Source of the DNA: Copromyces sp. CBS 386.78
Lineage: Eukaryota; Ascomycota; Sordariomycetes; Sordariales; Sordariaceae
Assembly: GCA_030685235.1 (NCBI GenBank)
Contig: MU839080.1
Location: 310,001-374,000 of the forward strand
Direction of reading: 5' to 3'
DNA length: 64,000 bases
Position numbers and translations under genes: made by a program. The notes beneath the pieces are model-generated. The model saw only the letters and a list, made by a program, of their open reading frames with translations. It searched no databases and had not been told where the DNA came from. Positions 38,781 to 60,044 of this stretch are shown in pieces (the stretch's first letter is position 1; every line of letters starts with the position of its first letter).

Positions 38781-38840
38781 ACATACAACACCAGGGATTC
38801 GCTGGTCGTCACCGACCCAACTACTAGTCTGGCCCTCACT
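38781..38840 (-). pseudogene. 5S rRNA gene, 3' part (split copy 4)
   Basis: The 3'-terminal 60 nt of a 5S gene, identical to copies 1 and 2 up to ...GGCCCTCACT on the plus strand, where the sequence leaves the 5S consensus. The remaining 59 nt lie at 59922-59980. The terminator-like A run precedes it on the plus strand. Confidence 0.92.
38829..38840. repeat. Target site duplication, left copy (12 bp)
   Basis: CTGGCCCTCACT, part of the 5S gene, is repeated at 59910-59921 directly outside the other end of the inserted segment. Confidence 0.8.
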
Positions 38841-39124
38841 AAGATTATCTATGGGAGTGGGAAGGACATGAAACGGGTCTTTTAATCACGTGGCAGGGTC
38901 AAAAAACTGAACAATCACCTCCCGTATCAAATCGTTCGTTACGGAGGCATTACGGTGAGTGGGGAGCCGGCGCTAAAATGATTGATATAATTGGGCGGAT
39001 TATGAGCAAAGTAGACCGTCCTGACACTGCGGCTAGATCTTTTACACGGGTAACACCAAGATTGCACTCGGTCAGAAGACCATTCCTGATTGGTTCTTCG
39101 TACTCCTCGGCCCAGTTATGTGTA
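38841..39124 (+). repeat. Terminal inverted repeat, left
   Basis: It aligns with the reverse complement of 59630-59909 at roughly 80% identity. Shared blocks include CGGGTCTTTTAATCACGTG, GTGAGTGGGGAGCCGGCGCT, GACCGTCCTGACACTGCGG, TTGCACTCGGTCAGAAGAC and CTCGGCCCAGTTATGTGTA. The divergence between the two arms suggests an old insertion or independent evolution of the ends. Confidence 0.85.
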
Positions 39125-40316
39125 TGCAGATGAGAGCGTGGCAAGGGAGTCTCTCGCTGTTGTCTTGTTGGATCACGATGGACCTCCTTCATGTACCTAC
39201 CTTAACCTACCTTCATCTGCCTGCATCAGCCTACCTCTTCCCTTCCATCCTGGCACGTCATAACCATGCGGTTGGCTTGCAACACTTCTCTCTCATCCGC
39301 GCATATAGAGCATCCAGCCCGGACGGAAATTTGCGTAGCATTTCTTCGGTACGCCATTTCTTAACCTCCGGGCCTGCAAGTACTTGGCAGACCAACGCCA
39401 CCCAGAGGAACGTGTCCTGCGCGTTGGAGCGCAAGTAGTCCTGAACGGTCTTTTTCGTGGTGGAGTCGTACTTTCTCAGCTCTCTTAGTTGGTCCACTTT
39501 GTATAAGATGAATGCATCGACAGCTGCCGCAACGGATTCCGCATTTAGCTCCAGGGAGACTTTCAAGCGGTCTTCTTATATATTGGTCTTCGAACCCGTC
39601 CCGTAGTCCCGTATTTTCGGGACTCCGGGACCCTGGGTTCGGGTTGCCTCCTATTGGTCAATCTATCTAGCTTACATAAGGGGTTTCTGATTGGATCGTA
39701 ACATCCTTCCTCGGTCCTCCTGCTGTAGAATACGAGTACGTGCAGGGTTGTAAAAGTATGGCCAGCGAGGCAAATAGAGCAGGAGACGAGGGCGGTAGAA
39801 GAGCACCGGAAGCAAGAACCCATATACAAAGCCAGATCAAGGCACCAAAGTAGAGCGCTTCGTCTTTATATTTTCCAGGACTTTTTGGTAAGGATAATTG
39901 TATGATGTTCACTACGGCGAACTTTGGCAGGCGCGAACATGACTCTATCATTGGCTATATCCAATCCACATAGTCGATTCACAATGGTACGCAGTCGATT
40001 TATCCGGCCCAGCCACCGCGTCAGCCAGCAGCTCCCACATATTCCCCAGTGCCTTTTTGACCAGACACTGTAGTTATATCACATAGCCTAATATCAATTT
40101 TTGAGCGGTGAAGGGCATTTGATATCCGCTGTGACATTTGACAGCACTGTGTCACATTTGAACACTGTAATGAACCGAACCGGGTGCCTGTCATTTTGGC
40201 ACTGGCAGAATTCTATAAATCGGACGGTTCTGGCACCCAGATCACTTCCTGGCCGTTCCATCTTCTTCACCCGAACTTGAATTTCAGGTAGAAGATAAGA
40301 TATCCAAGATTCGACC
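39125..40316. other. Element interior left of the methyltransferase
   Basis: Besides the NACHT fragment (39292-39570) there is a 94-codon ATG-initiated minus-strand frame at 39667-39951 with one hydrophobic segment (FGALIWLCIWVLASGALL). I do not recognise it and do not call it a gene. The right end is the methyltransferase promoter. Confidence 0.35.
39292..39570 (-). pseudogene. Fragment of a NACHT-WD40 receptor gene
   Basis: The minus-strand frame encodes KVSLELNAESVAAAVDAFIL through LDALYARM, which matches residues just after the NACHT domain of the receptor at 57.0-57.3 kb with only scattered differences. Homology stops abruptly on both sides, so this is a roughly 280-bp relic rather than a gene. 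It has the same orientation as the receptor at the other end of the element. Confidence 0.85.
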
Positions 40317-42210
40317 ATGAGTTCTCCGGCGAAAAAGGCTCAGTCGCCAGCACCCCAATCACCCACGCCCGGTCCTGCATCCCGGTCTCCCGCTGCTGCG
40401 AGAGAACTCACGCCTGCTCCCGCAACTCCAGCGGCTGTGAGAGAACCCACGCCCGGTCCTGCATCTCCCGCTGCTGAAACGACTGGCCCTCTTCCTGGAT
40501 CTCACTGGGCGGAACAGGTACGGCCCTCTCACGTTCCCCGTCGCCCGGTCACAAGCCCAATCATAATTGGAATTGATCACTGACATACTTCTACCTTACT
40601 TACGCACTATAGGGACTTCCGGAGGAGGAGGAAAATGATGGGGATTCAACCATTGGAAGTGATATCGAGAGTTCGACTGCTTCGATTAGTTCGAGTATCC
40701 TCAAATACCGTACCATGAACGGCCGAACTTACCATAGCGATAGCGTAACGGATGGAGAGTATTGGTAAGTCTGTTTGGGATTACTCGTCAGGGCTCGAAG
40801 CGCCCAGTCTGACCTCAGCATTGGGTCTATGAGGTGTCGTTTCTAGCCCAGAGTCCAGAAGAGTATGGATGAAGAGAAGCTCTGCGCATGTGGGGGGAAA
40901 CACCCAAGGCTAACGAGCATTTTAAACTTTCATGCAGGGGCCCCAACGACGCTAAGCAGAATGAAATGCTGGATATTTTGTAAGTGAAACATGCTTCCCA
41001 CCATCGGTTTGATCTCTCAAGGACCTATCATGCATACCTTTATCCGAGCCACTCAATCTGTCTCTCCGCCTCCAAGGCCCCATGAGGCTGCTGAACAGCT
41101 GTCAGGTTGCGCTACCATTGTTGTCGACCTGTCGTCGAATCTCATAGCATCCAGGATCGAAGACTTCCCTTCGACCGTCTGGATTTGGGACGTACAAGCT
41201 GCAGTAGCTCTCCTTTTTCACGGGAGCGTCAGCACCCTGTCGTGGCATCCCTATGTCCGCGAGACTTCGAGTTCTTGTAGCTAACCAAATATTGCCTACC
41301 TCTAGCCATCATGTGATGACCGTTTGTCTGGATGGCAGGCTTTATGATGCCCCTCTTCCCAAAAATCCTGAGAATGCAATTGATCTTGGCACAGGCACAG
41401 GTACGCCGACTTTCTACACTATCTTGGTGGTTGTTCCTTAAATACTAACTCGACATTTAGGGCTGTGGGCAATCGATTTTGCCGATAAATTCCCTAACTG
41501 CAACGTCATGGGTACTGATATCTCGCCCATCCAGCCCAGTTGGGTACCCCCCAATGTCCGTTTTGAAATCGACGACTACAATAAGGAATGGACCTATAAC
41601 TCTAATTTCTTCGACTTCATCCACCTCCGGTGGCTTACCGGCACCGTCAAAGACTGGTCTGCTTTTTATAAGGAGGCTTACCGGTGCTGCAAGCCAGGCG
41701 GTTACATCGAGCATATGGATGCTTCCAGCGGTACTGTTTGCTCAGACGATGGTTCCGTGAACACTAAGGTTCATGCCCTGGGCCAATGGGGCCCCATGTG
41801 GGAGGAGGCTTGCGGGAAGATTGGGCAGCAACTGCTCAGCAACGACATGATGGAGAACGGAATGAAGGAGGCCGGTTTCGTGAACATAGTAGTGAAGGAT
41901 TACAAGGTAAGTTCTCCGCTTCCCACAGCGTCTGTTTATCCCAGAAACTCTAACTACGGGATACTTGCAGATCCCTCTCTCCCCATGGTCCAAAGACAAG
42001 AAGTTGAACGAAGTTGGTCTGTACTTCTATGTCGCTATGAACCAGGACCTTGCTGGTAGTCTTCAGTTTATGTTTGGTAAGGTAATGGGATGGACCACGG
42101 AGGAGATCAACATCTACATCAAACATTTGCAGAAGGAGTTGAAGGACACTACCCTTCATCCGTACTTCATCTACCGCATGGTGTATGGCCAGAAGCCATT
42201 GGATGCTTAA
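40317..42210 (+). CDS. LaeA-like SAM-dependent methyltransferase
   Basis: Six exons: 40317..40517, 40613..40764, 40938..40979, 41306..41400, 41461..41906, 41971..42210, giving 391 residues with every junction in frame. The N-terminal 65 residues are Pro/Ala/Ser-rich repeats ([13 protein letters not shown]). The methyltransferase domain has the approach motif [21 protein letters not shown] motif [17 protein letters not shown], the post-I acidic [25 protein letters not shown] and [12 protein letters not shown]. This set is characteristic of the fungal LaeA-like (TAM) family. LaeA itself is a nuclear regulator of secondary metabolism; most relatives are uncharacterised, so that role is not assumed here. 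The gene is intact although it lies inside the 21-kb element among decayed sequence, which suggests it is maintained. Confidence 0.88.
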
Positions 42211-43467
42211 TGTACGGCTGGGCAACAACACCGACCGGGGCTGGTTACCTACCTAATCTCCCACGATGGGCGGTTGGATACCTCTACCTTAGGACAAGCT
42301 TCATATCTCTTTTTCTATGAATAATCTGAAAACAACATACTAGTTAAAACCTCGGATGACCGTCACACTTGTTTTACAGGGTTGACCCCAGACCGGGCAT
42401 GTGCCTTCAGCCTTACCCGGCCTCCACCTGCATCCAAATGTGCACTAATACTCTTACACCAATGATCGCAAAGGATTTGCTAGTGTCTGTTAGCGCAAAG
42501 CTCCCCACCGGCGTGTCTTCCTCGGCTCAGCTCGGGTATGTCTTTTTTCGACGTCCGGAGCATTTAGTCTCCACTCACGACGTCCCTCCAAGTCATCACA
42601 TTTAGCGGCGAAACCAAAGAGCGTAATATCGAAAACATATCTACCATATTGGCAGCTTCATGATACCCTGGCGTCTTCCCAATAGTGGTACCATACCATC
42701 TGACTAAGGTATCTAAGGAAACCCGAGTGGCGTTTTACTCTACCTACCTCTAGGTAAACGAAAGCACGTCGAAACGGTCAACCATCTGCGCCTACAATAA
42801 TCCCTTTCTACCCAAATGCTACGAACTCCGTCTATAAAAGACGGTCATCGTCTGACTTACGATACTTTGCTAGCAATCATCACCATCGCATTAACTCATC
42901 TATCGATCACATAGCGCAGCGTTTCCGTGTATCAAACATGTATGATACCTCTAGGTTTGTATTGTATGTTACCTGGATGCCACTATATATGCATTGGGAT
43001 GAAGAGAAAACAAGATGTGAGAGAGAAGAGACCGAGTCCGGGGACTCGGTGGGCATACGCTAGGTAAGTAGGTGTTATGGGTAAGGCTGAAGTAACAGCG
43101 ATGAACCTTGTTCGTTAGACGGGGGCGGGGAGTGGGTGGGAAGATAGGTTGCAAGGGGATCCATAATCTTTAACGACAATTTCCAAAATGACAGTATAAA
43201 AATAATAAGAAGAATTCATATCCAAATCGCTATTTACTTAATATACTAGCCACATTAATAACTAAAAGCATCGGCACGATATATATACGACCCTCCGCTG
43301 AAATATTCACATTCACAACACCCACCACCGTTTAGCATTACTTCCCATCGGTTATCCACCTTAAACATCCAGCGGCTTTTGCGCTCTCACCATGCGCCAC
43401 CTAATATTAGAATGAATCTTGGCTTCCCTAAACTCTCAGCGAATAGTAACGGCGTAGTTTGCGATTT
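42211..43467. other. Element interior, methyltransferase to copia LTR
   Basis: No recognisable gene, AT-rich towards the right. The LTR element inserted at 43468. Confidence 0.4.
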
Positions 43468-43698
43468 TGTGAGAAGATTCTGGGCGTTTGCTGCACAGAC
43501 CGCTAGTCCTTTGCGCTGCAGGGCTCTTTGCCCTGCACCCTTCTTTGACAGCGGATCTGGCACCTCCCAGAATCCCCTCCTTTGCAGACCTTCCTCCTCT
43601 TTGTATCACCAGCTCTATATAGCTGGTGATCCCCTCCAGCTTCAGATAGCTGGATCCCTCAATCATCATCATTCCCATCTTTCGTGATCCATCTCATA
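43468..43698 (+). repeat. Copia 5' LTR
   Basis: 231 bp, identical by eye to the 3' LTR. The end points are fixed independently by the nested solo LTR, whose 5-bp target duplication shows that the LTR runs TGTGAG...TCATA. An internal hairpin CACCAGCT(CTATAT)AGCTGGTG is visible. Confidence 0.93.
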
Positions 43699-43711
43699 GG
43701 TCATGAGCCCT
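43699..43711 (+). other. Primer-binding site, internal initiator-tRNA type
   Basis: GGTCATGAGCCCT starts directly after the LTR. It is nearly complementary to the anticodon arm of initiator tRNA-Met (GGGCTCATAACC), the half-tRNA priming known for Drosophila copia and several fungal copia elements. One position differs from that consensus. Confidence 0.6.
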
Positions 43712-43841
43712 CTGTCGCAACGCTAACGCGACCTCCCAACAGAAACCTTACCCAAGTCAGCGACGCGATTCACGCCCTGACAACCCTCCAAGTCAGACGA
43801 ACTTCCTGACGACCCTTTAAGTCGACGATTTACCGACACCC

Positions 43842-44939
43842 ATGAGGATTATCTATCAAGACAACAGTCAATCCCCCAACAAAACCCCGTCACTCGCTCT
43901 ACCAGCCATGACTTCAAGCAACAGCAACAACCTCGCCGATACGGCAACCCTCATTCAGCTCAAAGGCGAGAAGAATCTGGGCGACTGGGAATCAGCTCTC
44001 TGGGTCGCACTGGACTGCGCCAACCTCACAGACTACGTTTTCAGTCCCAAGGATAAACCAGAACCAGATGATAAAACATCAACAGAATACGAAACGTGGC
44101 GTTCCAACAGAGCCAAAGCAGTTGCCGCCATTCACAGCACTCTGAAAGCAGAGAACATCAGGACAACTCTTCAGATCAACGGTTGGAATCCACGAGATAG
44201 GGATCCCAGCTATCATTACCAGCTAGTCCAGAAAGCCATTGCAAAGGTCACAGACGAAGCCAGGGCAGATGTCCTTCAAGAATATCTGTCCTTGAAAAGA
44301 CAGTCTTTCGATACCATGGAATCATTCCTGCAAAGATACAACGTTTGTCGTAAACGCATAACCGAAGCCAACCTCAACATCGACGACGATCTCGAGATGG
44401 TCATCCTGTTCAATATGGTCAGAACCCAGTACCCCATTGAGGCTCGCCTCTGGGCCATGGATATGGAAACAAAGAAGCTGGTTCCATCGGTCTTCCTGGG
44501 AAAGCTCAGCACCATTGGCAACAGCGAGAAGCGTAATCCAACCCTCAACGTTTCTACACAAGTCAACAACACCGACAACAAGAACACCAACAACGATAAA
44601 AACAACAAAGACAACAAGGATAAGAAGAAAAGAGAGACAGAGAAGTGTTCAACGTGCAACAGAGACATCACGAAAGGTCACAAACACTTCGATTGCGGTC
44701 ATCACAGGAACCCTAAGACCCCAGACTGCTGGATGTGCAACCCAGAAAAGGCGCCAGATACATGGAGAAAAAAGAAAGAGTTGATGGAAGCTAAGTCTGG
44801 CACGGCAGCGGCTACGGCTGATACGAACAATGGCCTTACCCATCCCTCATCAAAGAGCTCCCTCCTGTACGGTAGCGTCAACAACTTCATGGCACTAAGC
44901 CGTGACGATTCTGATTCTGATAATCAGGATTTTTGGTAG
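43842..44939 (+). CDS. Copia Gag protein
   Basis: 365 residues. The N-terminal half has the UBN2/gag-like region (LIQLKGEKNLGDWESAL, EYLSLKRQSFDTMESFLQRYN). An Asn/Lys/Asp-rich linker precedes a Cys/His-rich segment (CSTCNRDITKGHKHFDCGHH ... CWMCNPEK), which is not a classical CX2CX4HX4C knuckle. The frame ends at a TAG inside the short overlap with pol. The second ATG (MTSSNSNNL, 43908) is an alternative start. Confidence 0.88.
   Translation: MRIIYQDNSQSPNKTPSLALPAMTSSNSNNLADTATLIQLKGEKNLGDWESALWVALDCANLTDYVFSPKDKPEPDDKTSTEYETWRSNRAKAVAAIHSTLKAENIRTTLQINGWNPRDRDPSYHYQLVQKAIAKVTDEARADVLQEYLSLKRQSFDTMESFLQRYNVCRKRITEANLNIDDDLEMVILFNMVRTQYPIEARLWAMDMETKKLVPSVFLGKLSTIGNSEKRNPTLNVSTQVNNTDNKNTNNDKNNKDNKDKKKRETEKCSTCNRDITKGHKHFDCGHHRNPKTPDCWMCNPEKAPDTWRKKKELMEAKSGTAAATADTNNGLTHPSSKSSLLYGSVNNFMALSRDDSDSDNQDFW
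44926..44939 (+). promoter_or_regulatory. Probable -1 frameshift site between gag and pol
   Basis: The pol frame is closed by TGA TAA just upstream and gag stops at TAG, leaving only the stretch TCAGGATTTTTGGTAG for a switch. The GAT-TTT-TGG codons allow a tRNA-Phe in the P site to re-pair after slipping one base back (TTT TTG GTA). Confidence 0.65.
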
Positions 44940-47900
44940 AGCCCGTAGCCAATACAAACGCTAAAATCCAACAGGCTCTCAAGGTATTCAACATCAACAA
45001 CGATAACACACGTGACAAGGTTCTCTACGATTCTGGATGTGCCACCAGCATCTTCAACCATCTCAAATGGTTTACAGAGATACAACCACTAAACGAACCA
45101 TCAGAACACGTAGTAGGCAACGGCAACTCCATATACTCGTACCATAAGGGCACAGTAGAGTTATCCATGCCAACAACACATCACGGGATAATAAGGGTGA
45201 CAATCAAGGACGTACAGTTCTGTCCTGACGTTCCAGCTAACCTCATCACCTCTGCTGGTCTCCTCGATAACGGTATGGAGTGGATGATGAAAAGCAACCA
45301 GATTTCCTACGGCAAATACACGATACAATGCAACTGGGCTGGCAACGTCCCTACCCTCCCTACCATACCTCCTAACAACTTCGACCAGACACACGAGCTC
45401 CCCAGAGCTCTGATGGCCTCGATAACGTACAAAACGATGCACAAACGACTGATGCACGCAGGTAAACAACAAGTCATCGAAGCTTGTCAGAAAGCAGGCA
45501 TCCCCATAACCAGACAGGAGGAGGATGATTGTGAGGCATGCAATATATCGAAAATGACAGATAAGATGCCAAAGGTGGTCTACGGTACAGCAGCGAGAAA
45601 GGCTCTACAATACGTACGTGTAGACGTCACCAGCCATAACCAGCCAGGCCATATGGGCGTCAGATACGTCGTACATTTTACCTGTATGGCGACAGCTCAC
45701 AGATGGGTTCGCTTCGTAGTCAACAAAGGTGATGCCTTTAGGGCACTTATCGAATGGAAAAGATTCGTGGAGTTACAAACTGGTCTGAAAGTCTGTATCA
45801 TAGGCCTTGATGGTGGCCCAGAATTCGGACTGGCGACAACAGAGTTCAAGAACTCTAAGCTGGATAAATGGGCAAAGCAAGAAGGTGTTGAGATCTGGAA
45901 AACAACACCCCATACACCATGGATGAACGGCCCGGCAGAACTGACTGGCCGTTTAATCATGACAAAGACCAGAACCGTCATCCAAGAGAACAAGATTCCC
46001 ATAGTTCTCTGGCCATTCGTGATGGATGCAGCCGTCAGAGTCATGAATCTACTACCAACCAAGGCGAATCCAGACAAGATGAGTCCCCATGAACTGCTTC
46101 ATACTCACGCTAATAGTCCTATGGATCAGAGGAAACCTTACCTCAAACACTTACGGAAATACTGGTGTATCGCCTACTATTACATCAAACCACAGAAACG
46201 TGAGCAAGGCGACAAGTTTACCCCGCGAGCACGCAAAGCCCACCTTCTCAACTACGGTGACGAACACGGCCGAATCTACTGGCTATACGATCCAGAATCT
46301 CAAGAGATAATCCGAGCAAGCGCAGTCAAGCTCGTTGAGAAGGATGACGAGGATAAAGAAAGAGAGGATGAGCCTCAACACACGGTAGTCTTCGAAGATC
46401 ACAGCGTTCAAGAGATAGAAGACGTGGCGGAACAAGAAAAGGAGGTGATAATCAGGGTAACGGGTACAACGCGATCAACAGCAGCGCGACCGGTGGAAGT
46501 TGAACAACAGTCTCAACCCAAGCTTCCCCCCGCGGTTCTCGAGATACCGCGTTACTACCTCACTCCATCATCGACACCAGCGCCATCGTCAACACCCTTG
46601 ATTCAAGATCTCCAGACCCAACAAGACCAGCCGCTCCCTTCCATCGAGGAGGAGGAACAGACAATGGACCTTGATGATCTGAATGAGGAGGATCCCATCC
46701 CACCAAAGGATAGTCCACTCAACAGATCACACTCCCCAAGCAGTTCCAGCGAATCTGATAAATCTTCGAAATCAGGAGACGCGACTACGGATAACGCGAT
46801 CTCTACCCCTACTCAACGCGGCAGTATCAGAATGCCAAACCTATTCAAAAGGTTTATGTCTCCATCAACCTTTAAACCTCTCCAGAACCCCATGGAGCTC
46901 CAGACTATGCCGCCAAAACCTCCAGCTCCCCCTCCAGATCCGCTGGCATCCCCAGCTCCCTCTACGGCTCAGCAGGGATCTCCAGCACCACCGGCTTCTC
47001 AAGCCCCACCTCCATCGGCTAACCCTGCTACTCCAGCACCCATACAAGCACTCCTTACTCCCTTGGTGCCTCTTTCAAACGATCAACCCTCTTCAGAACC
47101 CATGGCTCCAGCCGTGGATAACTCTGTTTCCCCAGAGGTACGAGAAGGTCGTCCAAAGAGAACTAAAGCCAAGAAACCAGAAGGATTCAAATATGGTGAG
47201 GAACAGGTAACAGATGGACTGAAGAAAACGGTGTTTTACCAAGGAACAATGGAACCAAACCGTCTTATCAGACCACCGCCTATCTGGTGCCTTACAGCTA
47301 TGAAGGCATTGAAGGAGATCAACAGCCATATAAACATCGAACGAGTTATCCCAAAGAACTACAGACAGGCTAAAAAGCTCCCAAACTTCAATACATATTG
47401 GCTTCCAGCGATGGAAAAGCAGGTAAAAGCACTGAAAGATCAACAAGTGTGGAATCTGGTACAGAAAACTCCCGATATGGATGTTCTACCTGGCAAATGG
47501 GTATATGACGAGAAATTCAACCTTCTTGATCAGAAATATGAAGCCAGAGCCAGATGGGTAGTCTGTGGCAATAAAGAACAGGAAGATTCATGGAATATCG
47601 AAGACGTCTATGCTGCAGTGGCCAACAGTACGAGCCTTCGAATCTTTCTGGTCTATATGGCCATCCACGATCTAGAATGCCAACAATTCGACTTCAATAC
47701 AGCATTCCTCAATGCCCCCATTCCAGAAGGAAAAAGATATTACGTCGAACAACCAACAGGACTAGCTGAGGAGCACCAGAAGGTGTGCTTGTTACGCAGA
47801 GCTCTATATGGGTTGAGACGGAGCCCTCTGTACTGGTTTAACACCATACATCCCATCCTGATGGGCCTGGGTTTCTCAGCACTAGGCACAGATGCCTGCC

Positions 47901-49186
47901 TTTTCATCAACAAAGATAAAGGAGCATTGATTATACTCTACGTCGACGATCTTCTCATTGCAGCACAGAAAAACGAGGATATTGAAGATACCGTCAACCA
48001 GCTGAAATCCAGGTTTAAGCTGAAGTCAATGGGCGAGGTCAGAACGTTTCTTGGGTATGATATCGTTCGTAACAAAAGGGAACGCACGGTATTTGTGTCA
48101 CAACAGCGATATGTGCAGGCAATCATCAAGAAGTTTGAATACGATGGTTTGAAAGGCGCCAACACTCCATGGCCACCAGACTACAGGATCCATGGGGGTG
48201 CAAATCCAGCCATCGAAATACCAGAAATCCAGAAACCCTACATCAAGAAGACTGGCTCCCTTAACTACGCATCTATGGGCTCACGCCCTGATATCACATA
48301 CACGGTCAACAAACTATATGAGGGTAACGCTAAACCTACAGATCGTCACGACTACGTATGAGATGGATCACGAAAATGATGGGAATGATGATTGATTGAG
48401 GGATCCAGCTAACTGAAGCTGGAGGGGATCGCCAGCTATATAGAGCTGGCGATACAAAGAGGAGGAAGGTCTGCAAAGGAGGGGATTCTGGGTGGTGCCA
48501 GATCCGCTGTCAAAGAAGGGTGCAGGGCTCAAAGAGCCCTGCGGCGCAAAGGACTAGCGGTCTGTGCAGCAAACGAACCCAGAATCTTCTCACACTACGT
48601 GATGCGCCATCTTTTCAGATATCTGGTAGATAATTCAGATCTGGGATTACTGCTGGGAGGACTGTCGTTTCCACAGCAACCAGACCTCAACTTCAGGACA
48701 TACGCAGATGCCTTATATGCTGATGATATCGAGACAAGGCACAGCACAGCTGGACATATCGTATTTGTTACAACTGGACCAGTTTTCTGGAAATCAAAGA
48801 AACAGGCTTTCGTTACTCTGAGCACAACAGAAGCAGAGTTTACCAACCTAGTCCCAGCAGCCAGATCAGCTGACTGGGTAGCTAAGATGCTGGAGGAGCT
48901 GGGTATGGCACAACCGCAGCGCATCCTCTTTACAGACAGTGCCAACGCGAGAGCTACGGCTCTCAGAACCCCTGGAAGGAACCGCTGTATTGATATACGG
49001 CTAAAATGGGTTACAGAACAGATAGAACAGAAAAGGTTTGAGGTTATTCACATACCAGGGACGGATATGGTAGCCGATGGCCTAACAAAAGGTCTCAAAG
49101 CGGATAAGCATGGAAGATTTGTAAAGATGCTGGGCCTAACTAAAAGGGAAATCCCCTGGCTCAACACCAAGAAAAAGGAGTCGTGA
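44933..49186 (+). pseudogene. Copia Pol polyprotein, interrupted by a solo LTR
   Basis: The first segment (to 48356) carries the aspartic protease (YDSGCATSIF, with DSG), GAG-pre-integrase zinc motif (HKRLMHAG...CEAC), integrase core (VDVTS..., DGGPEFG..., WMNGPAEL), a Pro/Ser-rich linker, and reverse transcriptase (FDFNTAFLNAPI, RALYGLRRSPLYW, YVDDLLIA). A 238-bp reverse LTR with a 5-bp duplication then introduces a TGA. The frame resumes precisely at 48595 with the RT thumb and RNase H (YADALYADD, STTEAEF, FTDSANAR). Without the insertion the frame would be continuous. As it stands the protein would lack RNase H, so the copy is non-autonomous. Confidence 0.9.
48357..48594 (-). mobile_element. 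Nested solo LTR of the same copia family
   Basis: 238 bp, reverse-complementary to the host LTR but with several substitutions and small insertions (for example CTCAAAGAG and GAACCC). It is flanked by a perfect 5-bp duplication CTACG (48352-48356 and 48595-48599). It is a recombination remnant of a separate insertion. Confidence 0.93.
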
Positions 49187-49231
49187 TAGTTTACATGTAC
49201 ATAGATTATCTCTGTCAGGTCTGCGGGGGTG

Positions 49232-49462
49232 TGTGAGAAGATTCTGGGCGTTTGCTGCACAGACCGCTAGTCCTTTGCGCTGCAGGGCTCTTTGCCCTGC
49301 ACCCTTCTTTGACAGCGGATCTGGCACCTCCCAGAATCCCCTCCTTTGCAGACCTTCCTCCTCTTTGTATCACCAGCTCTATATAGCTGGTGATCCCCTC
49401 CAGCTTCAGATAGCTGGATCCCTCAATCATCATCATTCCCATCTTTCGTGATCCATCTCATA
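49232..49462 (+). repeat. Copia 3' LTR
   Basis: Identical to the 5' LTR; preceded by a G-rich purine tract ending at 49231. Confidence 0.93.
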
Positions 49463-50162
49463 CGAGTTCTTCTCTGCAGCTTGCCGCGGAAATTTCAAGG
49501 CTAGTGACAGTCCATATATTAGCAACGACACTAAACAAACATTATATTTAGGAGGCACAAGAAGGAAAGATTGACCTCCCAGATGATGATCCTCGGCTTG
49601 TCCATATAATGGTACATTATCTATACCACTTGTCATGGCCCTATCCGACGGGTCATGCCCTGGGACATTTGACTGCATTGCACGGATGCATCGCACGGGT
49701 GATGCGAGCATTCTGATTGGTTGTAGATTAGATAAGGAAGAGTGGGTCCACGACGGGTTCAGCCTTGGAGGATAAAACTCCATTGCCAACCGCGCGCACA
49801 ACTCTTTCCTTTTGTTTTACTCTTTAGTCGTAAATTCTATGTTGAACGTCAACAACGCTGCAGCTCTGTCTCTCTCGTTACGTGCTATCACACTACTCCG
49901 ACTATGACGTACGGCTACAATACGAGCGTAATGGTTTTGATGGGTTAGAAATGGACGGATATGGAACCAACGTCAATGAACCCTACGCAACAAGGCAACC
50001 ACGGGCAGCCCACATCTAATAGAACCAATCCAAAAGTTACGGCGTAGAATGACTTGGCTGTTTGTATGGTACTCCAATCGGCATTTTGGTTGAACTGGGC
50101 AAATAAGGAGGAGCTGGAAACCGTACACGCAAATCACTATATAATTCTCTCTACTAATTACA
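49463..50162. other. Element interior, copia LTR to FunK1 remnant
   Basis: No recognisable gene. A TTAGATAAGGAAG block near 49730 recurs in the LTR-like sequence at about 54300, so old LTR material may lie here. Confidence 0.35.
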
Positions 50163-52436
50163 CTAATTCGTGGAGCTATCTCTCCGTAATACCTTTGGAT
50201 CCTCTCGAGCTTTCTCAAGAATCCCCCTCATCCGATCATACAATCCCTCGTCCTCTTTTTCCCACCTCCCACCGTTCGGAAATACTTCTCTCCGTAGTTT
50301 GTTGACCCAAGGTATCAACGGCCGGTAGTATGGCGTGAAGTTTTCTTCTGCCGATTCGATGAAATCTCCTTCATCATCAACTGTCGCCTTCTTCAACTTT
50401 GCCAACGTTACCGGGCTGGTATAATTCCACTGCTCAAACTCGTCAACAACCATGCTGTCGCTGTCGTTTGGCCCATTGTAGTGGACGTAGATCCAGAACA
50501 GGACCCAAAAGAATGATTCGAGATCATGCATGAAGGAATGTTGTTCGCGCAGAAGGACCCCAATTGCCATGAACGCCCTGGTGCCGGTCATGCCCTTTGC
50601 TCCGGAGGCACCTTCTCGTTCTTTTCTGACAGCAAGGTCTAGGTCGATTAAGAACGAAGGCCAGGAAGGGTTGTTGTCGTCCTTATTGATTATAAGGTTA
50701 TTAATGGAGATGTCTCTGTGAAGGAGGCTGGCCTTTCTCTATAGAGACTCGTGTCCGTTAATGCAGCCTTCCAACGTAGCGAGTAGGGCTACTCGGGAGC
50801 TTACCTTATAGATGGGTTGTCTATAGTCGCGAATAATAACTCGCTGATATACCTAATTTCGTAGCGCATTACTACTAGCTTGGGTCGTACAGGATCGCTT
50901 GTTGGAGGGTAAAGCGGCGTCGGTTTGGCTAGATGACCATTTCTTGCCAGCTATGCTAGTACTGTAGCCTTTCCGCGAAGTACTAGCCGTAACCGTTCTG
51001 GTCGGCGGCGTCAAGTGTTCCGGCCTATAGTTCTTCGCCGTACTAACATCTATTCCTCTCCGAACGTTGCTTCGGATATCGTCATCGGTTCCGCGCACCT
51101 GGACTGTCTCGTGGTAATAGTATCAAGCTACGTTCACTACCCCTTTATCGGTCGCTTCTCGCAACAGGTCCCCTTCCTCGTCGCACTTAGGGTACTGCTA
51201 GGAATCTTTGATAATTAATGATATTTGCGAGTCTCCCTCAGAATAGGCCTTCTAGCAGGTCGTTGCGCGGCTGTATATATAACGTCCGCGTCGTATCACT
51301 TTATTAATAATGAGACGTTCTGGTAAGCTATTCCTCTTGATTTAGACGACCCGCTTATTATTCTCCTTTATAAACGATGGATCGAACCCAAGCTCCTCCT
51401 CGCTCATCTATAGAAATGCGAGGACCGTTGATACGAATTGTAAGCCCTCCGTATTAATATCGAACTGTTTAGATGCGATGGCCCCGAGTCGATTAAACTC
51501 CTATAATCTCATAAATGATCTACAGATAGTAAATCCTAGGACGAAGCGACGACTGTCTTACGTGTCTTGAGCAGCGAACACTTCCCTTGCGTATCTCCTG
51601 AGATCGAGCCATGCATTTGACGCTATATCAGCAGAAGGATTGCTCTTCAGCTCGCCCGGTACGAGGACATGCGACCAGCGCTATTGAGTATCCTTTCTAG
51701 CCTTTGAGTCATCTACGAAGCCGACGTCCAATTTGCGTTCCGCTATCGAGCCGAGGATCGGTTTGTTGGGTTATACTAGCAGCCTTCGTCGCGGCGTCAG
51801 TATCCGATTCGGATGGTACTCTTCTGCAAACATTGCTAATTTCTCGCTCAATTCTGCAAACCAGTCCAAGATACGGTCCTAGTTCGCATTTGTCAGCTAC
51901 CCGCGCCAACTATTACGGAAGAGTGGTTCGTTGCTTTTTATGTACTTTTTGAAGATGGCTTGTGATGCTGTCTTTCAACCCGCTACCCGACCGATAAAGA
52001 TGTTATAGAAGTCAGGAAGGTCGACGTATATAGCGCCGAGCTCATCCTTAAGGACCATGTCTATATGCTTGCGATATTCGGAGGAGTTTGCGAAGTTGCT
52101 CGTATTGATAGACCGCGGAGTTTGGAGAAAGTGAGATGCTGTCGGTCGGGGAGGCGGGGTAGTTTCGGTAACGGTACAATAAACTTGGCGCCAGATCTTA
52201 TCGTCGGGCTTATTGGTGATGATTGCATTAAAAAGTGGTTCGAATTGGTCCGAGTCGAAGTTGTCCAAGTTGTTGGGGGTGAGGGCGGGTAGACGTCTCA
52301 ATATATCGTCGAGAAGGTTGGTATGGCCTGTATTCAAACGTAGAAGAGGGATAATAAGGAGGATTTGGAGTGTTGATAGAAGCCTAAACGCAAGATTCTG
52401 CAAATTTAAACTGTGGTTAGATGGGCATTTTAGCAA
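50163..52436 (-). pseudogene. FunK1-type fungal protein kinase, decayed
   Basis: Read on the minus strand. The 5' part (51975-52436) encodes the N-terminal region (FDSDQFEPLFNAII, DKIWRQVY, PRSINTSNF, DELGAIYVDLPDFY). The middle (about 50770-51970) keeps short homologous islands (DRILDWFAELSEKLA, KLDVGFVDDSKARKDTQ, WSHVLVPGELKSNPSADI) separated by many stops. The 3' part (50163-50750) is well preserved, with the catalytic loop HRDISINNL, the DLDLA metal-binding equivalent, MTGTRAFMA, and the typical SFMHDLESFFWVLFWI and FTPYYRPLIPWV. FunK1 kinases are a fungus-specific family often found with NLRs and transposons. The stop-rich middle with TA-rich changes resembles repeat-induced point mutation, so no full-length kinase can be made. 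Confidence 0.8.
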
Positions 52437-53459
52437 CGTGGGCCTGTCTCACTCACCTTATTGGCGCGCCCAGATAAAGGACAACGCCAGAAGGAAGATG
52501 GAGAATGGATGAAGGTATTCAGGAAGATCTATACGTATATAGACAGCTAAATAGATGCCTTGAAGACTTAGGTGATAAGGCTTGATACGTACCTTAAGTA
52601 CGTACTGATTCCCTTTGGTATAAGAAGGCCTTGAAGCCCAAACTTCTCCTGGAGGTTGAGAAGATTAATAAGGCCTTTGAGACCAAAAAAGATTATTAGC
52701 TAAATTGAGCTCTTTGTTCCAAGCCTAGGACTCTGCCCTTGTTACAAAAACAGGGTGAGTGAGGTGGGCAATTAGTTTCTACTCTCTGTTTGGAGTGAAG
52801 GAGAGTTCATTTAAAGATTGTTCTAAAGGAGACAGCTTAGCGAACTGTAAAGCCTGCCTAACGAAGACCTTATTAACTTTCTGACACCTATTTAGCCCGG
52901 GGATGGTATATAGGGTAGTCTCATAAGGCTGGATATTGCGTTCAAAATAAGTAGTATTAACTGTAGCTGTATTAATATTATTTTCTGCTGGTTTTTGTTC
53001 TTAATTAAGTCCCCTGTGGTATAGATAGCGGGACTCGGATCCCGAACACGCAAATCAGCACTGCGAATCTTGTACGATAGGTGCCATAAACACTATTGTG
53101 AACGCAATTGATTTATAGAATCGCGTAATGAAAAGATGTCCAGGATGTGCTTGGTTGTGGTCGCCTTCTAGTAGAACAAATCCAACTCTAACAATTCAGA
53201 CGTTCGCTTCAGAAGCCGATAGTCCGTTTATTACAGTGTCGAGTACTCCATAAGTTGTTGAATATTCCCCTTCTAACTCGTTTCATACGTAGGTACAAGA
53301 GAAAAGTTGGGACAAGTTCCCGTTCCGGGCTGAGAAATGTCACGGCGGTAGCAGACCACTACACTAACCAGCCCGTATCCCTGCAAAAGGGTACAAGTAA
53401 CCGAAGCTAGCAATTCGGTTACTCAAGTAGTCTTATATAGTTGCGACGGATAACCAGGC
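52437..53459. other. Degenerate AT-rich element interior
   Basis: About 1 kb of stop-rich sequence with no assignable gene. A tRNA-like block on the minus strand lies at 53309-53374. Confidence 0.35.
53309..53374 (-). other. tRNA-Asp-like sequence (possible SINE head)
   Basis: The minus strand reads GGTTAGTGTAGTGGTCTGCT, an A-box-like D-arm close to tRNA-Asp/Glu, followed 35 nt later by a degenerate B-box (GGGAACTTGTCCC). The acceptor stem does not pair well and no clean anticodon arm forms, so a functional tRNA is not claimed. Confidence 0.3.
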
Positions 53460-53920
53460 TGTCACAAGAAATAACGTTTACTCATTCTTTTCTCGCATTT
53501 CTTTAATTAATCAATCCTTCGAGAGGTGCGGAAATATAGCCGATAGTGATTGGGGAGCTGTGTTTCGAGATATAGCGGTCAGAACCCTAACCCTAGTTCT
53601 GGCTCAGCCAGCACTAGGGTTAGGATTCCTCAACCACCTGGTCAATGTGGGTACGTAGTTTGCTATCGCCGTAATATGTGACTGACACCAATGTCCGCTG
53701 AATTCGGTGGGGGTGGCAGGCAATATTACGAGCGACGTGGTCACGAGAGATAAAGCTGAACACGTTGATTCCAGGTCTATAGTAGAATCGTAAAATAAAG
53801 AATAAAAGAGGAAAACGTGCAAAGGCGCGCCTGGCGCCCAGCGTTTCAACCCAGGGCCAAGGTGGCCTGTGCACGCGGCACGACATTACGTGCCGGGACC
53901 CATCCGCCAGTACCGTAACA
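53460..53920 (-). repeat. LTR of a Ty3/gypsy-like element (minus strand)
   Basis: On the minus strand the sequence begins TGTTACGGTACTGG directly after a polypurine tract (CTACCGGGGGGGTGA) and ends CTTGTGACA, the TG...CA form of an LTR. The adjoining 53921-54110 (GGGACGAGTCTTTTTCTACC) is the usual 3' internal end of fungal gypsy elements. The body of the element is missing. Confidence 0.55.
53586..53624. other. Near-perfect palindrome with telomere-like arms
   Basis: CCTAACCCTAGT and ACTAGGGTTAGG enclose a second palindrome CTGGCT-C-AGCCAG. The 39 nt can fold almost entirely into a hairpin. It lies inside the LTR. Confidence 0.8.
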
Positions 53921-54110
53921 TCACCCCCCCGGTAGAAAAAGACTCGTCCCGAGTCGTGCAAATTGCACAGAAAGCTAGAATACATGTAAAGTGGGTGCAG
54001 ACCCAAAAATCCTCGCGTCACCTCCTCGCATCACTTCCTCGACCGACGTGTCGTCTTATTAGTCGTGTCCCTTTTCTCGCGGGCACGTTATCGTCGTCGT
54101 GATCTGGATC
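53921..54110 (-). mobile_element. 3' internal remnant of the gypsy-like element
   Basis: The polypurine tract and a short stop-containing stretch with charged residues resembling the end of a gypsy pol. No complete domain remains. Confidence 0.4.
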
Positions 54111-54273
54111 CAACTCCTCCGCGTCCGCCGCCTCTAGCCAGTCTTCACTAACATCCTACGAGACCCAAGCCTCGGAACGACCTACCTAATCATTGACGTA
54201 CCTTCAGCACCCATGTCGGTGGTACAAAGCCGCATGTTAAACCGCGATCCCCCGCATCTAGACTAGGGAGGAC

Positions 54274-54465
54274 TGTGACGACGGGGATTATTAGATTAGA
54301 TAAGGAAGGCGGTAGAGGCTGGCAGGATCTGGGCTCATCTCATATAAGGATGCACTCTAGAGCCTAGCTCTCAATCTTTCCCTCTTTTCTTCTTTAGCTT
54401 TAGTTATTTATTCATTTGTACCCAACTACGCGATACGGAACTACGTGAGCTGGTGCATCGTAACA
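54274..54465 (+). repeat. Putative solo LTR
   Basis: It begins TGTGACGACGGGG after a purine tract (CTAGGGAGGAC) and ends GCATCGTAACA. An internal promoter-like CATATAAGG lies about 60 bp before a pyrimidine-rich tract (TTTCCCTCTTTTCTTC). No partner LTR was recognised. Confidence 0.4.
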
Positions 54466-55065
54466 AGGACCATGTAGCTGTGGCAACGCTACTACAAGTG
54501 TGTTGGCTCACCTAAGCACCACTAAGGAAGAGACTACTTATCCGGTCGAGGAGAATCGAGGCCTCTACTACTGTACTAAGCTTAGCCAGGACTGGTATCA
54601 CGGGGCGAGAGGGCACTGTTGGGGGTATGGTAAGATATGCGTTGTTGTGCGAAGGAGAGAAAAGGAGGATGTGCGTGGAGGACTGGCTATATGGGCGAGA
54701 GCCCAGACAGGCCAGTCCGTGTGCGCGGACGTACAGTGCGACAATGTCACACGCTAACCCGGTGACAACTGGGCAGTCACGGGTTAATCCCGTGGCATCT
54801 AAACCGCACAGGCACCTGCAAAAGAGAGTCAAGGGATGGAATAGTCTTGCTTCTTTATAATGGAATACATTGACAATAGTAGAAGGTACCAGAATTTACA
54901 AAATTCCTATAAATTTGCTTATCCTCCCAGACTCTTCTGGTAGCACGCTAGAAAAATGAAATAGAGAGAAAGGAATTGAGAATGACATAGAATACATTAT
55001 ATGTCCTGCGAGAAACCAATAAACCAAACCAGTCCTGATACGGTGCCGAAGGATATCATCCGTCC
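54466..55065. other. Element interior downstream of the receptor gene
   Basis: No recognisable gene. It holds the 3' flank of the NACHT-WD40 receptor. Confidence 0.4.
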
Positions 55066-58000
55066 CTAGACATCACCTATAGACGGTCGGTAATTCGGTA
55101 GCAGCCAGAGTACGTTCTGGCCGTTGCAAGTAATCCAAGACCTATCCTGTCCCAAGCCATAGCCATGGCTCTTTGCATTAGCTAGTACAACTTGGCTTTC
55201 GGACGCAAGCAGCTGGCCATCAGGCGAGAATGCCACTGAGGTAACGGAGCCGCTATGGCCTTCTAGGGTCTGGAGGCGGCTCCCCGACGCCGCATCCCAG
55301 ATCTTGATCGTGGTGTCTTCCGAACCGGACGCAAGCCGCTGGCCATCAGGCGAGAATGCCACTGAGACAACGCTGTCGCTATGGCCTTCTAGGGTCTGGA
55401 GGCAGCTCCCCCACGCCGGATCCCAGATCTTGATCGTGTCGTCCCACGAACCGGACGCAAGCCGCTGGCCATCAGGCGAGAATGCCACTGAGCTAACGCA
55501 GCTGCTATGGCCTTTTAGGGTCTGGAGGCAGCTCCCCGACGCCGGATCCCAGATCTTGATCGTCTTATCCCCCGAACCGGACGCAAGCCGCTGGCCATCA
55601 GGCGAGAATGCCACTGAGACAACGGCGCCGCTATGGCCTTCTAGGGTCTGGAGGCAGCTCCCCGACGCCGCATCCCAGCTCTCCGACGCCGGATCCCAGA
55701 TCTTAATCGTGGTATCCCCCGAACCGGACGCAAGCCGCTGGCCATCAGGCGAGAATGCTACTAAGGTAACGGAGCCGCTATAGCCTTCTAGGGTCTGGAA
55801 GCAGCTCCCCGACGCCGCATCCCAGCTCTCCGACGCCGGATCCCAGATCTTAATCGTGTTGTCCCCCGAACCGGACGCAAGCCGCTGGCCATCAGGCGAG
55901 AATGCTACTAAGGTAACGGAGCCGCTATGGCCTTCTAGGGTCTGGAGGCAGCTCTCCGACGCCGGATCCCAGCTCTCCGACGCCGGATCCCAGCTCTCCG
56001 ACGCCGGATCCTAGATCTTGATCGTGTTGTCCCCCGAACCGGACGCAAGCCGCTGGCCATCAGGCGAGAATGCTACTGAGGTAACGGAGCCGCTATGGCC
56101 TTCTAGGGTCTGGAGGCATGCATCCCAATCCAATTCTACAGCCGGCTTAGTTCGAATCCATTTAGGTTCTTCTGCCCTAAAATTCCTCTTTATCAAGCTA
56201 CCGCTTGGAGCAAATATAAGCGCTAATATATATGCTTGAAGTGGAGCTTGCTCTATTATTGACTTATAAAATAGAGTAAACCGGTAAGCATCCTGAACAA
56301 GCTTTGATAACTGCGATAGATTATTACCTCCCTATATCTTTAGTTAGATTAAGTTCCTAGTGCGGAGTTAGACTTGTACTTACTAGCAGGCCCTCGAGCT
56401 GTCTAATGGCGATGACGCCCTCAGACATAGCTTGGAGTAGACTTAGAGCTTCGAGCCAGTAAAGGTACTTCGTCTTGAGGAATGTATAGATAGCCTCATC
56501 CCATAAAAGATGCCGTTTTGTGTTCGTGCCAGAAGCCGAGTCACACAAGTGATCAACCCAGTAGACGCACGAGTACCGCACCGTCGCTAGCGGGTCCGGA
56601 TCCGGTACTTGGACCTTGTCGCTCGGAAATCCCGGTGCGCTTAAGTCGTACATATCGCGTCGCAATACTATAGACATAGCTTTAAGTGACCTTGAGAAGA
56701 TAGTATAGTTCACATCTTCTTTCCCAGAAGGAAAGATCCAGCTGAAAGCCTCCTGAGAAGCTTGGTTGCCAGCTTTATCAAAAGCATTGCCCAATAGAAA
56801 GTCCTTGGCTGATTGATGAACGAAATAAATAGTTCGTTCTCGTATCGTTAGAAATGAACCGCAAAGCCTTATAATCTCTTCTAGAGATTCGAGATCATCG
56901 CAGATGATATTAGGCATCTCGACGAGAGTAGTTAGTTCTTGAACGCTAATTGGTCGACGAACAATGGCAGCAACGGCAAGCACGCGCTTGCAGAGATCAG
57001 AATGGTAGGATAGGCTTATATCCTGTTTCATCCGCGCGTATAGAGCATCCAGTCCGGGTGGAAACTTGCGTAGGATCTCTTCGGTATTCCATTTCTTAAC
57101 CTCCGGACCTGCAAGCGCTAGGCAGACTAACGCCACCCATAGAAACGTATCCTGCGCGTTGGAGCGCAAATAGTCCTGAACGACCTTTTTCGTAGTTAGA
57201 TTGTACTTCTTCAGCCCTTCTAGTTGGTTTACCTTGTATAGGATGAATGCATTGACAGCTGCCGCGACGGATTCCGCATTTAGCTCCAGGGAGACTTTCA
57301 AGTTGGCCGTAGCTATCTCCAATTGTTCCTCGATTTGCGGCGAATTACGACTTGAAACAATCCACTTGACTCGAGAAGATTTAGATGATTGCTGGGCGAT
57401 TAAGTCAAGAAGCTGTGACCGATCTTCAACGCACTCGTCAAGCGCGTCAATGACTAGGTAGGTCGTTCGGAGGCTTGGGTCTTGTAGGATGTCGGTGAAG
57501 ATTTCTGATAGGGCGTCCCACGCATTTGCATCTATGAAGAGGTTTTCGTCTGTATGGTCATACTTTTTCCGCACGTGTGGGAGGACACATGGCTGCTGTT
57601 CGATAAGCACGTAGATCAGGCCGCGTAGTACGGCGGTTGCATTGTTGATACGAGAGTCGGTAGCTTGGCAGAAGAAGTAGGCCACATTGCAATAGCGCGC
57701 GTTGGCAGTATTGCCTTGATCCAGCTCATTGATGATGCCGCATAGCAACATAGTCTTCCCTTTGCCGGGGTCGCCCTTGATCCAGAGCAGTCGGTGCTGT
57801 AGGTCGTCACGCCATTGTTGAAAGTCAGCGTTATTGAGGACCCAACGATACGAGTCCTGCAAAAGGCCGCCTTTGGTCCGTTCGATGCGGACTTTATCAT
57901 CGCGAGGATCGGTAAGGCGCAAGTGCTTCAGGCATTGCTGGTCCTTCTCTGACATTGCATAGCTAACGAGCTGCTCGAGATGAGACGTCCCTTTCCAAGT

Positions 58001-59085
58001 GGTATATGTTTGGGCATCTGTGTCGAAGCGCTTCTCAGCGTCTTGGATAGCCCCCAAATCAGCTTTCCAGTCATCAAGCGTGATCATATCCCGCAGAAAG
58101 ACTAAGCCGGGGTTGCGATAATAAGCATAAACACTCTTAATCTGGTAAGAGAGGAGCGCTTTGTAGAGGCTAACAATGTAGTTCTCCAATTGGCCTTTCA
58201 TTCCAGAGGGTTCGCTGATATTGTTGGTAGGATCCTTAAGAAGGCTATTCGACAAGCTCCAGTACCACTTCATTCTCTTAACAACGTAGTCGATCCCTTC
58301 GCGGTTGGCTTTGGTCGCTTTTATAGGATTGATGAATATCTGTAGAAGTTAGTATGTGAAGTATCATATCACGCTCTAAATAGACATACCTCTAAAGCGA
58401 TACAAATGCCAGTCCAAGCGAACGCGGCTTGGGGCACGGCTTGGATTGCCGCACTTATAATGTTCTTAACGGATAGAATAACGTCCATAACTTCGCCACA
58501 GCTCTCTTTCACTTTAGCTTCTCTCTCAGTCTTGGCTAGACCAGCATTGATAAGCTGAATCATTTGGCGGCGCCTGTCCGAGTTGTTTTGGGCGCTGATG
58601 TTCGGCTGAGACTCGAGCACCATTGAGTTGGAGCCATTTTGTAGCTGTCGGGACAGTATCTTCTCATATGCGTCCACCAATTTGACTTCTTCTTGTTTAA
58701 GCTCGTTATAGGCACGCTCCCAGAGTCGTGCAGGTAAGCTGGTAGTGGTGTCATTCGCGCCGGCGGACGTCTCTCTGTCGGCGGAACCAGTAGCTGGGGT
58801 GGCTGGGGGCCGTGGGGTGGACGTCTCTATATTAATGGAACTGGTAGCCGGAGCGAGTGGGAGCTGTGAGGCGGACGTCTCTACGTCAGTGGAAACGGTA
58901 GCCGGAGCGGCCGTGAAGGGGAGGGAGGACGTAGAGAGAGTGGCGGGGATGTGCTGTGTAGACGTCGGCAACTCGAGTAGAGATGCAGGGCAAGCCTGCT
59001 CTTGGTCCTTAGAGCCTTCCCTATCCTCTGTATTTCCGTGTCGCTTGAAATGCGTCTGGAACGACGAGCGCAGTCGTCGACGCAT
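55066..59085 (-). pseudogene. NACHT-WD40 NLR-type receptor (HNWD/HET-E-like) with premature TAG
   Basis: Three exons, complement(55066..56331, 56384..58339, 58390..59085), 1306 codons. Order: a Ser/Thr/Pro-rich start (MRRRLRSSFQTHFKRHG), a NACHT_N-type domain (about 115-330: LWERAYNELKQEE, AFAWTGICIALEIFINPIKA), a NACHT NTPase (P-loop GDPGKGKT near 421, Walker B TYLVIDALDE near 523), a helical region, then seven 42-residue WD40 repeats (GHSGSVTSVAFSPDGQRLAS type) that would close one propeller, and a tail with LGQDRSWITCNGQNVLWLLP. Such receptors control incompatibility and cell death in Podospora. Codon 991 is TAG at 56011-56013, exactly where the first WD repeat has its Trp (TGG in the others). 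Everything downstream stays in frame, so the break is a single change. It might be a recent loss, a read-through site or an error. Confidence 0.85.
55220..56130 (-). repeat. Seven near-identical WD40 coding repeats
   Basis: A 126-bp unit recurs seven times with only a few changes per copy, mostly at positions after GH(S/D) and V(T/V)S. Units 2 to 4 carry extra 21-bp insertions (encoding WDPASES or WDAASGS) in the linker between propeller blades. Confidence 0.9.
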
Positions 59086-59629
59086 CGTAGCTTTGAGGAA
59101 GGAACGTCTTGACTGCAGTGAGGATGCTATAGTTGATGATTAATAAATCGAGTTTATGAAAGTGCCGGGAATGCCTCTCTCCTGCCATCTAGGACAAAAC
59201 AAGGAAAAGAAACTAGAACACTGTGTTTTCTCGAGGTTATGAGGGAGCATAGGGCTCTGTGTTGTCACCTTGTCAGGCGCGAGATGGCTGGCGGCTTCCT
59301 CCCAATTACACGCCAATTACCCAAACGATATTTCTTTTTTGAGGCTGGGCATTCATGGACCCGGAAGGTTCAGGGCGCCAAATCAATTGCCTGGGTTGGG
59401 TCGTAGCTTTCCGTCACGGGTCTACAGGATTGGCTCTCCACCCAGACGTTCTAACAGTATGGACACCTAGTCGACGGCTCCAGCGCCATCTACGTGGCTA
59501 GTGCCGATAGCGTAGGGTAACGCCTCAGGGGGCGCAGGCGACGCATGGGTGTCGTACAAACAGACTCGAGCAAGTCTTCCTCGCGATGCGAGCTAGTTTT
59601 CTCTCCTTCGTAGAACCTTATCCATTCAT
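59086..59629. other. Element interior, receptor promoter to right TIR
   Basis: Upstream region of the NACHT-WD40 receptor. No separate gene seen. Confidence 0.4.
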
Positions 59630-59909
59630 TACACATAACTGGGCCGAGGTACTAGGAACCAATCAGGAATAGTCTTCTGACCGAGTGCAATTTTGGTGTT
59701 AACCCCTGTAGAAAATCTAGCCGCAGTGTCAGGACGGTCAACTTCTCTCGTAACCCCTCCAATTATATTCATCTTTTTAGCGCCGGCTCCCCACTCACTG
59801 TCTTGCCTCCGTCCGAACAATATGGATATGTGAGGTGGTTGTTCAGTTTTTTGACCCTATCACGTGATTAAAAGACCCGGTTCATATCTTTCCAACTCCC
59901 ATACATAAG
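59630..59909 (-). repeat. Terminal inverted repeat, right
   Basis: Reverse-complement partner of 38841-39124. Its outermost bases read, from the outside in, CTTATGTATGGGAGTTGG, against TTATCTATGGGAGTGGG at the left end. Confidence 0.85.
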
Positions 59910-59980
59910 CTGGCCCTCACTGGCTTATCTATGGGAGAGCGGACGGGATCCCGAGTTTTCCAGTGGGTATGGTCGTATGT
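59910..59980 (-). pseudogene. 5S rRNA gene, 5' part plus duplicated target (split copy 4)
   Basis: 71 nt identical to the 5' part of the intact 5S genes; the first 12 (59910-59921) are the target duplication and 59922-59980 complete the gene interrupted at 38840. A TATAATG element lies about 29 bp upstream on the minus strand (near 60004-60010), so before the insertion this was probably an active gene. Confidence 0.92.
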
Positions 59981-60044
59981 ATTTGTCTTTGTTATTCTCA
60001 TCATTATAAAGGAGCATACGGACATTAAGGAGCAAGAGGAGAAG

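Follow-up and report, generated by a model that had tools for sequence, protein, structure and literature searches.

A large element with the same type of end twice in a split 5S rRNA gene of Copromyces sp. CBS 386.78, probably a non-autonomous relative of Starships

The DNA considered here, 64,000 nucleotides of contig MU839080.1 of Copromyces sp. CBS 386.78 (positions 310,001 to 374,000; this whole stretch is "the window"), contains a 5S rRNA gene that is cut in two by approximately 21 kb. A first-pass annotation, made from the sequence alone, took the intervening DNA to be a large cargo-bearing mobile element, and the analysis supports that proposal. Starships are giant transposons of fungi with a DUF3435 tyrosine recombinase, the "captain", and it is by their captains that they are recognized. 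The element in the window is probably a non-autonomous derivative of a 5S-targeting lineage of this type: captain-less, and presumably dependent on a captain supplied in trans. Its most telling feature is that it has one and the same type of end sequence, referred to below as L, at both of its extremities, while the canonical members of its family have two unlike ends.

The split gene and the ends of the element

Both parts of the interrupted gene lie on the minus strand, the 3' part (5S nt 60-119) at 38781..38840 and the 5' part (nt 1-71) at 59910..59980. They were identified with Rfam and by comparison with an intact copy at 18123-18242, against which both are free of mismatches. The parts overlap by 12 nt, AGTGAGGGCCAG; the earlier count of 60 + 59 = 119 nt agrees with this, since it takes the repeat a single time. 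The window has four copies of this 12-mer: those at the two junctions, already noted as a repeat, and one within each of two of its three intact 5S genes. (Rfam assigns 44.1 and 30.4 bits to the split pieces, the latter falling below the family's gathering score of 38, and 89-92 bits to the three intact genes.) Within the 12-bp repeat lies a 6-bp core that comparison with the rest of the family marks as the target duplication: CCCTCA (TGAGGG in the sense of the 5S gene), at 38833..38838 on the left (within the repeat 38829-38840) and at 59914..59919 on the right (within 59910-59921), the same position as in other copies. The direct repeat is 12 bp instead of 6 bp in the window because the sequences that flank the core equal those of the 5S gene: the right end of the element starts with CCAG, which is the 5S sequence at the same place, and the left end finishes with AG, as does 5S.

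Just inside the junctions are the inverted repeats, put at about 280 bp by the first-pass annotation: 38842..39125 (plus strand), the left arm, is the L end, and 59629..59911 (minus strand) is designated R; the two are identical in 246 of 286 alignment columns (86%). R is defined by position: it is L-type sequence, recognized as such by inverted-repeat comparison, genome search and phylogenetic tree, standing where canonical copies carry their captain end, K. The long inverted repeats of the window element exist because one end type is there twice. A 14-bp "half-site" that resembles the 5S sequence CTTATCTATGGGAG lies in each of the L, K and R ends that were read, the same or with a few changes, and CTTATCTATGGGAG itself is present in the window's three intact 5S genes. 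At the L end of the window element the half-site is ATTATCTATGGGAG (38844..38857, plus strand), identical to CTTATCTATGGGAG at 13 of 14 positions; at the R end, as read from the junction, it is CTTATGTATGGGAG (59896..59909, minus strand).

A family with unlike ends and a linked captain

Each end was used as a query against the window's own genome (49.8 Mb in 273 contigs, the window's contig being C2), and scores were computed for 40 of the 116 first-look candidates of one end and 40 of the 128 of the other, which makes the counts lower bounds. Both queries find the same places, at least 28 of them (21 L and 7 R), plus fragments and intact 5S genes, and a truncated L end on C101 brings the L ends to at least 22. 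Further copies with the same ends, which according to the proposed check would define the family, are present; that family does not support the Mutator-like reading.

These ends are placed with great regularity. Sixteen of the 22 L ends adjoin the 3' half of a 5S gene at the same site, and the remaining six lie against the next element, at its K or R end. The 13 K ends, which are unrelated to L apart from the half-site, adjoin a 5S 5' half at the same site in nine cases and an L end in four; none among the K ends read stands at a 5S 3' half. Three of the seven R ends (in the window, on C24 and on C184, with different unique flanks) adjoin a 5S 5' half, two (both on C60) adjoin an L end, and that on C77 starts at the end of its contig. 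The far ends of the C24 and C184 elements were not read. Altogether, L-type ends stand at a 5S half in 19 cases, 16 of them at a 3' half and three, at these three separate loci, at a 5' half. Orientation with respect to the 5S gene is fixed for K and L. There are also six end-to-end junctions between elements (one each on C7, C63 and C96, and three on C60), in which two inverted half-sites surround the overlap. The load on the 5S genes is measurable: a pattern for the 5S 3' site matches 78 places genome-wide, 16 of which are L-end junctions and 62 of which are without such an end, a count that is limited by the pattern, the 62 including sites of unchecked full length.

In the commonest type of 5S gene the overlap is TGAGGG, that is, nt 62-67; in others it is CAATCG (C14, C33, C101) or ATATCG (C18, C63, C83, C96). 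Wherever both outer 5S junctions were read (at C196 and at the outer ends of the C7 array), the duplication is a clean 6 bp. What follows the overlap at K ends is GAAG in 10 of 13, GAAC in two and GTGG in one. (A side note on the 5S genes themselves: at least three types differ in the overlap region, and the ATATCG type is seen solely at split genes and junctions; no uninterrupted 5S gene of that type matched the search pattern, and the 5' side of the type is known from a half-gene at C63:183087. A model in which the variable spacer is a free coupling sequence was entertained and has been partly replaced by the three 5S types, TGAGGG, CAATCG and ATATCG.)

Complete elements are of two kinds. 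The K-L element of C196 (7379-29690, 22 kb) has a captain; C7 has two K-L elements in tandem, of approximately 6.3 and 9.2 kb, without a captain match; K-L pairs on C63 (58 kb), C5 (134 kb) and C60 (148 kb), whose spans are inferred from paired ends with interiors unread, each have a captain region. The R-L elements, with L-type sequence at both ends, are three: the window element (21 kb, or approximately 15 kb minus a copia retrotransposon), C60:6394-13714 (7.3 kb) and C77:1-15386 (15.4 kb).

The captain was sought with the Pfam DUF3435 model in a six-frame search that is blind to introns (E <= 0.001). There is one match in the 49.8 Mb, at C196:9392-9790, some 2 kb into a K end and with an inward reading direction, in an open reading frame (ORF) of 471 amino acids (DUF3435 E 8.9e-10). 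The C-terminus of this ORF resembles C2H2 zinc fingers (weak, sub-cut-off Pfam matches; PDB matches from 1e-4), and a PDB sequence search with the ORF returned zinc-finger proteins only. With its protein as query three more regions come to light, at C5:654231-655637, C63:184916-186707 and C60:55362-56711. All four captain-type regions lie inside K ends and read inward, the first match being approximately 1.7 to 5.4 kb in; nine of the 13 K ends, some of them cut by contig ends, are without a captain match. By its captain the family of ends is Starship-like, to judge from the DUF3435 match, so that a hint at Starships in the first-pass annotation fits the family.

The C5, C63 and C60 captain regions are interrupted by many stops. 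Where they differ from C196, the change is mostly C-to-T/G-to-A: 483 such changes against 10 reverse transitions and 7 transversions in C5, 387 against 39 and 64 in C63, and 774 against 66 and 191 in C60, an excess that we take to be the pattern of repeat-induced point mutation. The C196 copy, unlike these three, is of ordinary composition.

The window is different: it has no match to the DUF3435 model or to the captain protein, so that the proposed check for DUF3435 finds captain regions inside K ends elsewhere in the genome and none here. Among 30 window ORFs scanned with Pfam (a subset of those listed; one of them, 59868-60395, extends beyond the element), no mobile-element domain was found besides that of the copia ORF. 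The earlier remark that no known mover gene is visible holds; so does its suggestion of a non-autonomous derivative, for an element that has L-type sequence at either extremity and lacks a captain match.

How might such an element move? Canonical members have their K end on the 5' side of the 5S gene, with the captain gene (where present) inside it and reading inward, and their L end on the 3' side. An inverted copy of L would have replaced K in the derivative, leaving two L-type ends that resemble long terminal inverted repeats. A captain encoded elsewhere, in a different copy, would bind to the half-sites at the outer edges of the two ends (approximately CTTATSTATGGGAG) and to the same half-site in 5S; recombination across the 6-bp overlap would then insert the element in a single orientation at 5S nt 62-67. 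When a K or R end is joined to a 5S 5' half, an inverted pair of half-sites is rebuilt around the overlap, which would be the expected form of a tyrosine-recombinase site. The resemblance of the outer 14 bp of the ends to the 5S half-site would explain the choice of target, the orientation and the tandem arrays. As to the route by which the second L end was acquired, the 6.3-kb element of C7 offers a clue: between its K and L ends it has matches to window segments 54468-55157 and 58870-59434, in the same order, and its L end stands where the window has R. This suggests that the R half of the window element was derived from the L half of a C7-like element, inverted.

Weighing the alternatives

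Long terminal inverted repeats and a 9-12-bp target duplication are what one would look for in a Mutator-like element (MULE) or another DDE element, and the window copy, with its long repeats and 12-bp direct repeat, does at a glance comply; that was the first-pass reading. The family to which the copy belongs makes it extremely improbable: C196 and C7 have 6-bp duplications, the position in 5S is always the same, there is a second and unrelated type of end (K), the mover gene linked to the ends is a DUF3435 gene, and no transposase was found in the 30 scanned window ORFs besides copia (no genome-wide search for MULE transposases was made). Nor is a "new class" of element needed, given that the long inverted repeats are one end type present twice. 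That the assembly has joined two unrelated 5S halves is the least credible explanation of all. Repeated 5S genes may mislead assemblers, but the window lies inside a 968-kb contig, both halves are exact 5S matches with a common overlap, and junctions of these kinds are seen again and again, on many contigs and beside different flanking sequence.

More has to be said about the possibility that two-L copies are immobile. On this view they arose where they stand, through recombination or inversion involving adjacent K-L elements of a tandem array, and transposition was limited to the original insertions. Raw material for such rearrangement is at hand in the six tandem junctions, where L stands beside K or R; the scatter of R ends on the tree, and internal joins that are common to K-L copies, would also follow. 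Other observations speak against formation in place. Window segments 52466-53295, 54010-54274 and 54466-55157 recur at a different locus, in the R-L element of C60, with their order towards the L end unchanged, and also in C68 as far as the contig reaches (its far end is off the contig). Four R ends (R_win, R_C60_6394, R_C77 and R_C60_23847) form a group (support 83/98) and are 86-97% similar to one another, and three R ends meet a 5S 5' half at the same nucleotide, and with the same overlap, as canonical copies do. The likeliest reading, short of a proof, is that one R-L lineage or more moved between loci as a unit. Formation in place is, on balance, unlikely, though it deserves to be kept in mind: one internal join, 54273/54468, is also found in C7, C77 and two other places on C60, K-L copies (C7, C60_201) included, and this sharing of joins counts slightly against a mobile, trans-mobilized derivative and slightly in favour of formation in place. 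(At the same join the window has approximately 190 bp, 54275-54465, that are lacking in C60 at three places and in C68, C77 and C7: a small insertion.)

The reading of the window element as a captain-dependent derivative has other points to answer, and they are gathered here. The join just mentioned is, by its presence in K-L copies, not private to two-L elements. Neither is a strongly supported clade of L ends (100/99): together with those of the window, C60_13774, C77, C68, C89 and C215 it includes the L end of the first C7 element, a K-L element. R ends are scattered on the tree, five of them grouping when R_C83b is included (73/71) and R_C24 and R_C184 lying elsewhere, without a single well supported clade; one clade of all seven is neither shown nor rejected (p-AU 0.146). 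The two-L layout may accordingly have arisen repeatedly, or its history may have been blurred by conversion. R_C83b (C83:72934) has an outer flank that is not 5S, as a result of off-target insertion or later rearrangement. The flanks TGGGGG at L_C5 and TGAAGG at K_C92 depart from TGAGGG and are read as mutation, and the clean 6-bp duplication is based on two cases, C196 and C7. The C196 captain region has stops beyond the 471-amino-acid ORF, for which introns may or may not account, and a captain that functions at present remains putative. No excision or circle was observed, nor mobilization in trans, which is what we infer.

Cargo and comparison with known systems

The window element carries host-type cargo: a NACHT/WD40 receptor, a methyltransferase and a piece of a fungal kinase. 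Six of its 10 main ORFs have Pfam matches (methyltransferase, copia, the kinase piece and three NLR parts); 20 further ORFs yield one, the next WD40 piece. The gene content proposed earlier, a methyltransferase (called LaeA-like in the first-pass annotation) and an NLR, is recovered by Pfam at 41442..42059 (plus strand; Methyltransf_23, E 1.6e-16) and at 55066..59139 (minus strand). The NLR gene is in pieces, with possible introns or frameshifts between them: NACHT_N at 58369-59139 plus the start of the next ORF, NACHT at 56357-58348 and WD40 repeats at 55066-56331, all on the minus strand. An ORF at 39258..39575 (minus strand), without a Pfam match of its own, is a fragment of the NLR gene (39288-39567 is 86% identical to 57023-57302). 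The kinase (Pkinase_fungal, E 5.4e-34) at 50163..50738, on the minus strand, is the C-terminal part only (305-386 of the 387 profile positions). Nearly 6 kb of the element's 21 kb, missed by the first-pass annotation, is a copia retrotransposon at 43468..49462 (plus strand), with 231-bp long terminal repeats (LTRs) that are 100% identical and RVT_2 in the ORF 44924-48361; sequence comparison places a third LTR (95%), inverted, inside it (48357..48594, minus strand). The insertion is young, and repeats of this genome are marked by C-to-T/G-to-A decay; no target duplication flanking it is evident by eye. Elsewhere in the window, Rfam finds a U2 snRNA gene at 120-314 on the minus strand (157 bits).

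Receptors are also common in the other copies. Among 25 long ORFs taken from these, Pfam finds 11 of receptor type, nine without a match and five of other families (DUF6601, DUF7580 twice, DDE_3 and a BRCT that lies outside its element). The receptor-type matches are to NACHT/HEAT in C196, HET and ankyrin in C83 and C7, ankyrin in C24, NACHT and WD40 in C77, and WD40 in C68; a C26 ORF matches TPR and phosphorylase, its NB-ARC match falling just below cut-off. NACHT genes related to that of the window are also present in C83 and C60 (tblastn). The HET-ankyrin gene of C7 and the NACHT-WD40 gene of the window (54466-59434) occupy the same place between matching flanks, and the receptor bodies seem to have been swapped inside one cassette. 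(The notion that an NLR has taken the captain's place was dropped: starting from the R end, the NLR of the window is read inward, whereas its C77 homologue is reversed.)

One can tentatively go further and think of "satellite" Starships that propagate themselves: having lost the captain end and kept the cargo end in two inverted copies, they might spread NLR/HET cassettes through the dispersed 5S genes by means of the captains of full-length elements. An occupied 5S gene might even be the better landing site, because insertion rebuilds an inverted half-site pair beside the 5S 5' half, and tandem receptor arrays could be the outcome. A captain-less lineage with long terminal inverted repeats that still reaches 5S would imply that some of the cargo traffic escapes searches that start from captains. 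A simple rule of target choice is also suggested, the outer 14 bp of the element resembling the target half-site, which makes captain specificity testable, and there is a possible route for the spreading and shuffling of fungal NLR/HET receptors.

How does the family compare with what is known? Voyager is reportedly a Starship that inserts in the 5S rDNA of Macrophomina phaseolina. The family described here has in common with Starships, Voyager in particular, an inward captain in one end, a short direct repeat, NLR/HET-type cargo and a 5S target; the shortest of its K-L pairs, which was read, spans approximately 6 kb, and the longest, deduced from paired ends, 148 kb. Unlike Starships, the window element has no captain and has the non-captain end twice, inverted. 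Like non-autonomous derivatives of the miniature inverted-repeat (MITE) kind, it has kept its ends, lacks a mover gene and was presumably moved in trans; unlike them it is much larger, carries host-type receptor genes, and owes its symmetric ends to the doubling of one end of an unlike-ended element. MULEs have long terminal inverted repeats as the window copy does, but differ in target duplication, mover gene and end structure. Tyrosine-recombinase elements of the Tn916 type are alike in having two inverted half-sites around a short overlap, and the donor site would be a circle junction built in this way; in the present family, by contrast, no circle was seen, and the overlap follows the type of the 5S target.

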